Of a stretch of 64,000 nt of DNA, positions 60,747 through 62,834 are shown one piece after another. Position numbers and translations under genes: made by a program. A model generated the notes under the pieces. It saw only the letters and a program-made list of their open reading frames with translations. It did no database searches and was not told the DNA's origin. This DNA is from Leptolyngbyaceae cyanobacterium clean351 (GTDB lineage: Bacteria; Cyanobacteriota; Cyanobacteriia; DAIDHW01): assembly GCA_027451865.1 (NCBI GenBank), contig DAIDHW010000001.1, positions 145,798 to 209,797 of the forward strand, in the 5' to 3' direction. The stretch's first letter is position 1, and each line of letters begins with the position of its first letter.

Positions 60747-61178
60747 ATGGCTGACTTAACCCCAGACAGTTACCTAGTCATCGGCTTGGCTACCTGCTTT
60801 GTTAAAGAGGAGGGGGAGGTGAAGGCTTTACAGATCCTCGAACCAATTCCTTCAGCGGCCCTAGAGGCCCTAGTCAAAGGTATTCCGACTTCCTACAAGC
60901 GGGCCTGGGGGACAAGCCTGGCTTGCCTGGCAACCCCAGAGGGGGCGCGGGCAGCCTTCGGCCCTGAGGGGCAACTGTGTGATGATTTTACTGAGCGTGC
61001 CCTAGCGGCAGCTCGTACCTACCAAGCCAAACCAGAAGCTGCCGAACTTATCCCCCTAGGTACTACTAGGGCTGATTTCAATTACTCTGTCGAGCGCAAG
61101 CGGGTCTTAAACTCCACCCCCGTAGTACGGCCGGAGGACAATGTCAAGCAGCATGCCTACACCCATCAGGTGCTCTGA
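60747..61178 (+). CDS. Conserved cyanobacterial protein, function unknown
   Basis: The 143-residue protein has the conserved-looking MADLTPDSYLVIGLATCFVK, LEPIPSAALEALVKGIPTSY and FNYSVERKRVLNS and ends DNVKQHAYTHQVL. I recall it as a widespread conserved hypothetical of cyanobacteria. No membrane or catalytic motif is visible. A possible promoter (TATAAG near 60690 and GATACTAT near 60711) precedes it. It is followed by the calcyanin-like gene after 31 nt. Confidence 0.75.
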   Translation: MADLTPDSYLVIGLATCFVKEEGEVKALQILEPIPSAALEALVKGIPTSYKRAWGTSLACLATPEGARAAFGPEGQLCDDFTERALAAARTYQAKPEAAELIPLGTTRADFNYSVERKRVLNSTPVVRPEDNVKQHAYTHQVL

Positions 61179-61209: not shown

Positions 61210-62106
61210 ATGGTCATCCCTAAGGGTTGTGCGTTAGTTCATTCCATCCCTGGAAGGGCTCGGTTTATTCTTGCCCCACGGCTGTTAAACTCCCCCTGGC
61301 TGCCCCAGCAGTTAACAGTTCTCCCGGGAGTTATGGGGGTGCGCGTCAACTCCGAAGCCAAGTCCCTAATTATCAACTACCAAGCCGCCGAATTACCCCT
61401 AGAAAAACTAGAAGCGTACTTAGCACATCTTCTGGAAACTGCTCCTGTCAGCTTACCAGCCGCCCCCGCGGCTCCGCCGTCCAAGGAAGTGGACCTGGCA
61501 GAGACCGTAGTAGCCTCCGTGGCCGGTGGGTCAGTGGGCAATATCGTGGGGGGGTTAGTAGGAGCCGTGGTCGGGGGCGTAGCCATGGGACCGGTAGGAT
61601 TGGTTGTGGGAGAAGAGGTGGGCTCCCTAGTGGGAGAAGTGGTGGGCTCAGAAGTGGGCCGGGAAATGGTGAGCGAACTGAATCATCCTGAACCCACCCC
61701 TGAGCCTGTTTCCCAACCCAACCTAGTCTCAGACGTGGAAGCGGTCGGCGCTGAAAAAACCCTCGAGGTGGTAGGAGAAGTGGCTGGGGAGGTCCTGGGT
61801 ATAGTGGTGGGAGAGCCAGAACTAGGGGCAGCGGCGGGCCATGAGTTGGGGCGAGACCTGGGGACCATGATTGGGGTTTTGATTGAAGGGCAACCCCCCT
61901 TATCCCCCCAGCCAGCCCAAGAGCCGGCCAGTCTGGGGGAGGAGGTTTCCCCAACCCTAAAGCCCTCGGGTCCGGAAGTTACCCTCTCCGAGTCGCAGCT
62001 GGACTTGAGTCCGCCGCAGCTGCAGATAAGCCCGCCCCCAGCCGCCCCCCCCAAACCGCCACGGCAGCGGCGCAGCCGGACCAAGAAACCTGCGCCGGAA
62101 CCCTAG
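61210..62106 (+). CDS. Calcyanin-like CoBaHMA plus glycine-zipper protein
   Basis: The 298-residue protein has three parts. Residues 7-78 fit an HMA-like beta-alpha-beta fold with basic residues after strand 1 (LVHSIPGRARFIL; GVMGVRVNSEAKSLIINY), resembling the CoBaHMA domain. Residues 100-152 are a glycine zipper with Gly every fourth residue (106, 110, 114, 118, 122, then 130, 134, 138, 142, 146, 150); a second block has Gly at 189, 193, 197, 201 and 206, 210, 214, 218, 222. Residues 227-298 are Pro-rich, ending basic (PRQRRSRTKKPAPEP). Calcyanin, tied to intracellular CaCO3 in some cyanobacteria, pairs CoBaHMA with three such zippers. Here I see two, so it may be calcyanin or a paralogous family. 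Confidence 0.7.
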   Translation: MVIPKGCALVHSIPGRARFILAPRLLNSPWLPQQLTVLPGVMGVRVNSEAKSLIINYQAAELPLEKLEAYLAHLLETAPVSLPAAPAAPPSKEVDLAETVVASVAGGSVGNIVGGLVGAVVGGVAMGPVGLVVGEEVGSLVGEVVGSEVGREMVSELNHPEPTPEPVSQPNLVSDVEAVGAEKTLEVVGEVAGEVLGIVVGEPELGAAAGHELGRDLGTMIGVLIEGQPPLSPQPAQEPASLGEEVSPTLKPSGPEVTLSESQLDLSPPQLQISPPPAAPPKPPRQRRSRTKKPAPEP

Positions 62107-62108
62107 TC

Positions 62109-62834
62109 GTGGAGCGCTTTTGCCTTGAGGACGTGGGTTTCAAGCCTCCTAAATCCCCCACCTGGGCCCTTGAGGGCGTGACCTTGGGACTGGCGGCCGG
62201 GGAAGTAGTAGCCCTGGTGGGGGCCAATGGCTCCGGTAAAACTTCCCTGCTGCGCTTGCTCAACCGACTGGCGGACCCTACCCGAGGCACTATCTACCTG
62301 GAGGGGCAGCTGCTCCAGAGCCTACCGGTGATCCAGGTACGCCAGCAGGTAACTTTGGTGCTCCAGGAAACTAGCCTTTTGGGGATGAGCGTGGGCGAAA
62401 CTCTTACCTATCCCCTGCGCTTGCGAGGACTAGACTCCCGGGTGATCCAGGAACGCCTAACTAGTTGGTGCGAGCAACTGGAGATCCCGCCTGCCTGGCT
62501 AGGGCGGGGGCAGGCTGAGCTGTCCGGCGGCCAGCGTCAACTAGTGGCAGTGGGGCGAGCCTTGATCACGGAACCCCTAGTTCTGCTTTTAGATGAGCCC
62601 ACCTCGGCCCTAGACCACAGTCGGGGGACCCTGATGATCAAAGTCCTCCAGGAATTAGCCAGCACTCGGGGCACAACGATCCTCATGGCTAATCACCAGT
62701 TAAACCTACTAGCCCACGGATGTACCCGCCTAATCCAACTAGACCAGGGCAAGGTAATTCGCGACCAACCCCAGGACCAGGTAAATTGGTCCGACCTACA
62801 GGCGGTCTTACCCCCTAGCTCTCCCCAACCATAG
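62109..62834 (+). CDS. ABC transporter ATP-binding protein
   Basis: The 241-residue ATPase has Walker A GANGSGKT near residue 38, a Q-loop, the signature LSGGQRQLVAVGRAL near 141, Walker B LVLLLDEPTSALD and an H-loop MANHQ. It resembles small YbbL/FetA-type or amino-acid-type ATPases. The start is GTG 62109, only 2 nt after the calcyanin-like stop, so the two are likely cotranslated. No permease gene is adjacent. Its 3' end overlaps nanE by 20 nt. Substrate unknown; the coupling to the glycine-zipper protein suggests a shared membrane process. Confidence 0.9.
   Translation: MERFCLEDVGFKPPKSPTWALEGVTLGLAAGEVVALVGANGSGKTSLLRLLNRLADPTRGTIYLEGQLLQSLPVIQVRQQVTLVLQETSLLGMSVGETLTYPLRLRGLDSRVIQERLTSWCEQLEIPPAWLGRGQAELSGGQRQLVAVGRALITEPLVLLLDEPTSALDHSRGTLMIKVLQELASTRGTTILMANHQLNLLAHGCTRLIQLDQGKVIRDQPQDQVNWSDLQAVLPPSSPQP

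Follow-up and report, generated by a model that had tools for sequence, protein, structure and literature searches.

An open reading frame of 298 codons with an ATG start occupies positions 61210-62106 on the forward strand of the window, that is, of the entire 64,000-nucleotide stretch of DNA analysed here. It encodes a protein with an N-terminal CoBaHMA domain, two glycine zippers and a basic tail; below they are called the short gene and the short protein. The gene of an ABC ATPase follows directly. The features of the locus are listed below.

60747..61178, plus strand: open reading frame just upstream of the short gene, 143 aa, family unassigned, gap of 31 bp
61210..62106, plus strand: gene for the CoBaHMA / two-glycine-zipper / basic-tail protein, 298 aa, with homologues
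61228..61437, plus strand: CoBaHMA domain, residues 7-76, with the H-x3-GRAR motif and R45-x-N47, without CxxC (profile, AlphaFold2, Foldseek)
61495..61683, plus strand: glycine zipper 1, residues 96-158, similar to calcyanin GlyZip1 (G1 profile, shuffles, AlphaFold2)
61723..61887, plus strand: glycine zipper 2, residues 172-226, degenerate and acidic (profiles, shuffles, charge, AlphaFold2)
61888..62103, plus strand: Pro-rich tail, residues 227-298, predicted to be disordered
62109..62834, plus strand: ABC ATPase, FetA-type, GTG start, 241 aa, two bases after the stop codon of the short gene

The initial annotation had placed the 298-codon frame at the same position and had described an HMA-like N-terminal domain, two glycine-zipper blocks, a Pro-rich basic tail and an ABC ATPase starting two bases after the stop. 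This anatomy is confirmed: the gap is indeed two bases, and the last 20 residues of the tail carry a net charge of +6. The product of the 143-codon frame at 60747-61178 had no match in Pfam or NCBIfam; it may open the transcription unit to which the short gene belongs.

CoBaHMA stands for Conserved Basic residues HMA, and binding of anionic lipids has been proposed as a role of this domain. A CoBaHMA profile built without the short protein gave a score of 40.1 bits, and 44.0 bits with the N-terminal domain alone; the best score among 1000 residue shuffles of the domain was 3.2 bits. The Pfam family HMA_2 (PF19991), which overlaps with the CoBaHMA family, matched residues 9-76 weakly (E=0.0013, under the curated cut-off). 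AlphaFold2 predicts a beta-beta-alpha-beta-beta-alpha ferredoxin-like fold for residues 8-77 with mean pLDDT 83. The best Foldseek matches of this model include YajR-YAM and the HMA domains of ATP7B/Menkes and Wilson proteins (probability 0.97-1.00, E at least 0.03). Residues H11, R16, R18 and N47 are invariant across the family alignment, and R45 is nearly so. Residues 7-76 thus belong to the CoBaHMA domain family, and the profile, the predicted fold and Foldseek all agree with an HMA-like domain. The short protein has a single cysteine, at residue 7, and no CxxC metal site; therefore soft-metal binding in the manner of HMA domains is unlikely. The HMA-like fold, the H-x3-GR-x-R motif, the absence of CxxC and the N-terminal placement are all typical of the family. 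However, helix 1 is about three residues shorter than in other members, and the domain is followed by two zippers and a basic tail.

Calcyanin, the product of ccyA, marks cyanobacteria that store calcium carbonate intracellularly. It has an N-terminal domain of the CoBaHMA, X, Y or Z type followed by three glycine zippers, GlyZip1-GlyZip2-GlyZip3. The definitions of both calcyanin and CoBaHMA were re-derived from the calcyanin sequences themselves, and one profile per zipper was constructed from an alignment of 14 three-zipper calcyanin-like proteins found in genome searches.

The short protein contains 12 GxxxGxxxG triples, far above the number in 5000 whole-protein shuffles (mean 0.33, maximum 5), and none of 5000 shuffles preserving the composition of the zippers reached the observed count. 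These triples form two zippers, not three. AlphaFold2 predicts two helical hairpins with low confidence (pLDDT 50-63), residues 96-126/128-158 in zipper 1 and 172-200/203-226 in zipper 2, the latter with pLDDT of about 56-63. Both zippers are short and acidic, and their hydrophobicity is moderate.

Within the full protein, zipper 1 scores 44.7 bits against the GlyZip1 profile, inside the leave-one-out range of the 14 calcyanins (39.6-73.3). As an isolated segment it scores 49.5 bits, and 500 shuffles with glycines kept in place reached 31.2 bits at most. This similarity at the sequence level supports zipper 1 as a true relative of calcyanin GlyZip1. The situation with zipper 2 is different. 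Its best domain scores are 15.2 bits to GlyZip2 and 9.8 bits to GlyZip3; as an isolated segment it scores 18.0 bits to GlyZip2, with 12 of 500 shuffles as good, and 14.3 bits to GlyZip3, with 1 of 500 as good. In the leave-one-out analysis, the GlyZip2 scores of the 14 calcyanins are 34.9-61.9 bits versus 22.7 bits for the short protein, and even the latter value is a cross-match of zipper 1. The corresponding GlyZip3 scores are 32.5-67.4 bits versus 9.8 bits. Profile search of the short protein revealed neither a third zipper nor the GlyZip3 signature GET...GR..DW. Thus two defining features of calcyanin, GlyZip2 and GlyZip3, are lacking.

The short protein is therefore a member of the calcyanin/CoBaHMA-glycine-zipper superfamily, not calcyanin itself. 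It has the CoBaHMA N-terminus, a zipper of the GlyZip1 type and predicted helical hairpins in common with calcyanin, but two zippers instead of three, the second being degenerate; moreover, its zippers are acidic, and its basic Pro-rich tail is longer. A glycine-zipper hairpin is also present in SlyB and other glycine-zipper membrane proteins, but those have no CoBaHMA domain, and the sequence match to them is non-significant (E=0.14). One consequence is that the combination of CoBaHMA and glycine zippers alone is no marker of carbonate inclusions, and all three zippers need to be scored.

A complete calcyanin, with CoBaHMA and GlyZip1-2-3, is encoded elsewhere in the same genome, by a 341-aa open frame on the minus strand of contig C1 at about 652,304-653,251 (L029, L102). 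It is approximately 445 kb away from the short gene, outside the window, and hence could not be seen in the initial annotation. It carries the third-zipper signature GET..VGG..GR...GP.G...G...G...GR..DW and has leave-one-out scores of 73.3, 50.1 and 57.1 bits for GlyZip1, GlyZip2 and GlyZip3. The profile of the whole calcyanin matches it nearly end-to-end with 424 bits, as compared with a partial match of 68 bits to the short protein; since this profile includes the full calcyanin, the leave-one-out scores provide the independent test. The two proteins are 33% identical over residues 3-222 of the short protein. Their charges differ: the net charges of zippers 1 and 2 in the short protein are -6 and -9, whereas the three zippers of the full calcyanin have -1, -4 and -1, and its tail has -2.

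These data bear on the suggestion of the initial annotation that the short protein is a divergent calcyanin, that is, that it drives the formation of intracellular amorphous calcium carbonate itself, with two zippers sufficing where calcyanin has three. The part of this claim that stands is kinship: the CoBaHMA domain, the GlyZip1-like zipper and the 33% identity all agree with it. In the strict sense it is not supported, as GlyZip3 is missing, zipper 2 scores too low for a GlyZip2, the charges of the zippers and the tail are unlike those in the full calcyanin of this genome, the genome already has a complete calcyanin, and comparable short genes occur in three genomes without one (see below). 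Such a role for the short protein is highly improbable. The best reading is that it is a paralogue of the full calcyanin and no substitute for it.

Given the full calcyanin, inclusions are predicted whatever the short gene does. This amounts to a prediction of intracellular carbonate in a lineage without close relatives in the sample: among the sampled genomes there is no relative of the source organism nearer than the class, and its order is otherwise unsampled. A natural short form with CoBaHMA and GlyZip1 but with GlyZip3 dropped, existing beside the full form, is a built-in truncation for dissecting the roles of the zippers.

The two calcyanin-family genes of this genome may have a common neighbourhood. 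The small protein encoded upstream-adjacent to the full calcyanin belongs, with 62% identity, to the conserved 82-86-aa protein of cluster cl3 (L102:8365-8628; L087:6978-7235), which follows the FetA-type ATPase in several other neighbourhoods. The shared cl3 places both genes at pieces of one apparent ancestral neighbourhood; this link was spotted post hoc and could be due to chance.

Among 390 members of the class, three other genomes encode proteins that combine CoBaHMA with one or two zippers and likewise fail both GlyZip2 and GlyZip3. These are Phormidesmis priestleyi BC1401 (G094), Centralia MAG 596 (G281) and G160, and no full calcyanin was found in any of them. Scanning of genome contigs with the short protein as a single query produced no relative. 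Ten aligned proteins shared no stretch of sufficient conservation for a scan, and an alignment of three proteins used as the query yielded two short relatives. One further candidate, L127, was rejected as spurious, as the match was to the reverse frame of a gene with Pro/Thr repeats. Coordinates of two of the genes are as follows.

L125:4306-5112: short CoBaHMA-zipper gene of Phormidesmis priestleyi BC1401
L126:2835-3818: short CoBaHMA-zipper gene of Centralia MAG 596

The proteins from all three genomes resemble the short protein in having acidic zippers and/or a Lys/Arg-rich basic C-terminus; in P. priestleyi the net charges are -8 and -9 for the zippers and +4 for the tail. Such genes are sporadic: within the family of P. 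priestleyi, two out of 42 genomes have one. At both L125 and L126, a CoBaHMA P-type ATPase gene is located upstream of the short gene, and a transporter gene follows directly. Thus the architecture of CoBaHMA, two acidic zippers and a K/R-rich C-terminus is the same as in the short protein, and a transporter gene follows in all three cases. However, the second zipper is the better one at L125 and L126, whereas the first is better here, the identity to the short protein is 32-34%, and the downstream partner is a CoBaHMA-EamA permease whose gene overlaps the short gene by 4 bp. Hence linkage to a part of a transporter recurs, with a non-homologous partner. The term short class, applied to the short protein and those of G094, G281 and G160, is descriptive and does not denote a demonstrated family. 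In a tree of CoBaHMA domains the short protein groups neither with the other short genes nor with its own calcyanin, and the short proteins may therefore be convergent; this tree is based on 65 residues, is poorly resolved and is too short for placing the protein.

Two further origins of the short gene may be considered. Firstly, it could be a truncated copy of calcyanin without function on its way to loss, with the ATPase gene merely happening to be downstream. The degeneration of zipper 2, the loss of zipper 3 and the shortening of helix 1 in the CoBaHMA domain would all be expected in that case. On the other hand, 298 codons are free of stops, base composition by codon position resembles that of the neighbouring genes, the conserved CoBaHMA residues are retained, and similar proteins from other genomes also have a basic tail and acidic zippers; nor does the poorly resolved tree group the domain with that of the own calcyanin. 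Decay is thus an unlikely explanation. Secondly, a CoBaHMA domain from a P-type ATPase or transporter setting could have been combined independently with a generic glycine zipper, making the short protein a look-alike rather than a paralogue. In the genomes searched CoBaHMA indeed has many partners, including P-type ATPases, EamA and diacylglycerol kinase, and the nearest neighbour in the CoBaHMA tree is a 413-aa transporter-like protein (support 91/87) from G034, which may be Gloeomargarita lithophora. However, zipper 1 resembles GlyZip1 beyond the pattern of glycines, with the isolated segment well above the shuffle maximum, which makes independent shuffling quite unlikely.

The ATPase encoded downstream has intact motifs: Walker A GANGSGKT, signature LSGGQ, Walker B LLLLDEP and H-loop ANHQ. 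The initial annotation regarded it as an orphan. However, orthologues with 43-53% identity were found in 27 of 59 cyanobacterial genomes, the source included. Two tests, a phylogenetic tree and co-occurrence with the permease FetB (UPF0014), addressed its affiliation with FetA. In the tree, an operon-encoded FetA from G019 (L188) is the sister of the clade that contains this ATPase (support 94/84); monophyly of all FetA, with the E. coli protein among them, is not rejected (p-AU 0.45), nor is it demonstrated. The best match of E. coli FetA in this genome is the same ATPase, by a tiny margin (8.5e-24 vs 1.3e-23). FetB is present in 25 of 27 genomes with the ATPase and in 12 of 32 genomes without it (Fisher p=1e-5, an optimistic value because the genomes are related); the two exceptional genomes with the ATPase and no FetB are fragmented assemblies. 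Every evaluable genome with the ATPase has a FetB that is not adjacent to an ATPase gene, the loci of G003 and G036 being cut by contig ends. In G019, G033, G047 and G052 there is a second FetB copy with its own FetA beside it. In the 12 genomes with FetB and without the ATPase, FetA is adjacent to FetB in seven, and the other five have divergent UPF0014 proteins.

The source genome follows this pattern. Its FetB is encoded at 115102-115815 of contig C1 (UPF0014, E=3.6e-80; L105, L124), approximately 92 kb from the ATPase gene on the same contig and about 30 kb before the window begins. No ATPase gene was found beside it, so FetA and FetB are not in one operon. Judging from phylogeny and co-occurrence, the ATPase is probably a FetA acting in trans with the unlinked FetB. 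It resembles the FetAB (UPF0014/YbbLM) metal exporter in its ATPase subfamily, its sister position to an operon-encoded FetA and the presence of FetB in the genome, but differs in its separation from the FetB gene and in the modest identity to E. coli FetA (32%). Thus the label of orphan does not fit the ATPase, which is a conserved cyanobacterial FetA-type protein with a likely permease encoded elsewhere.

It had also been suggested that the short protein and the ATPase make up a new two-component membrane system. The glycine-zipper hairpins would then form the membrane part of an ABC transporter energised by the adjacent ATPase. The shared strand, the gap of two bases and the transporter genes following the short genes at L125 and L126 are compatible with this suggestion. 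However, among the 31 same-strand gene pairs of the window, ten are separated by 10 bp or less, and such spacing is thus weak evidence of a functional link. Furthermore, a calcyanin-like gene is adjacent to the ATPase gene in none of the 16 neighbourhoods examined in other genomes, where the usual upstream neighbour encodes a membrane protein of approximately 200 aa. The source genome has retained the gene for the latter on another contig (C3:26424-26921), and we rejected replacement of this protein by the calcyanin-like one as the partner of the ATPase. Finally, the short length, the acidity and the only moderate hydrophobicity of the zippers speak against such a membrane part, and the ATPase has FetB as a candidate partner. 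A two-component system is therefore very unlikely.

We consider instead that the short calcyanin paralogue may be a membrane-associated accessory or scaffold protein in metal homeostasis, co-transcribed with fetA; the probability of this reading, kinship and function taken together, is roughly 0.5. The two-base gap is consistent with one transcript. The CoBaHMA domain, with its conserved basic edge and without CxxC, would attach to anionic lipid headgroups or to a partner in the membrane. The hairpins of both zippers could insert into the membrane or lie on its surface and form oligomers, and the acidic zippers and the basic tail would add electrostatic contacts. In this way the short protein would serve metal-ion transport as a local scaffold or regulator at the membrane. 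The FetA-type ATPase encoded next to it would most likely energise the unlinked FetB permease for metal efflux. A common role in metal homeostasis, and not the formation of one ABC transporter, would then explain why the two genes are on one transcript.

A rather unlikely extension of the accessory-protein reading is a division of labour between the two calcyanin-family proteins, the full one serving the inclusion and the short one bringing FetA to the same membrane domain. If so, the short class would be a general transporter-tethering branch of calcyanins, the tethered transporter being an EamA permease in Phormidesmis and FetA here. The envelope of the inclusions, which is unexplained, measures about 2.5 nm and is either a lipid monolayer or a protein shell (PMC6087745); one may speculate that the hairpin proteins could help to form it.

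Several other genes of the superfamily were observed. L213 and L215, from the small 2.6 Mb genomes G365 and G362 of family f2, encode a CoBaHMA protein of 306 aa that has three divergent zippers and ends in GRKINW; possibly, this is a very divergent calcyanin. Family f26 is presumably Thermosynechococcus-like. In G213 (L040, L121) calcyanin is apparently frameshifted, with GlyZip1 and GlyZip3 in different frames. A diacylglycerol-kinase-like protein of G210 is fused to CoBaHMA and a glycine zipper (L207:202-2106), which puts this domain pair in a lipid-metabolism setting. G270 encodes a 222-aa two-zipper protein without CoBaHMA (L038), and its calcyanin frame overlaps the gene of a sodium/calcium exchanger (PF01699; L120:6584-8735). 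Together with the reported link of ccyA, whose specific function is unclear, to calcium homeostasis (PMC11773610), this overlap supports contact of calcyanin-family genes with Ca2+ transport.
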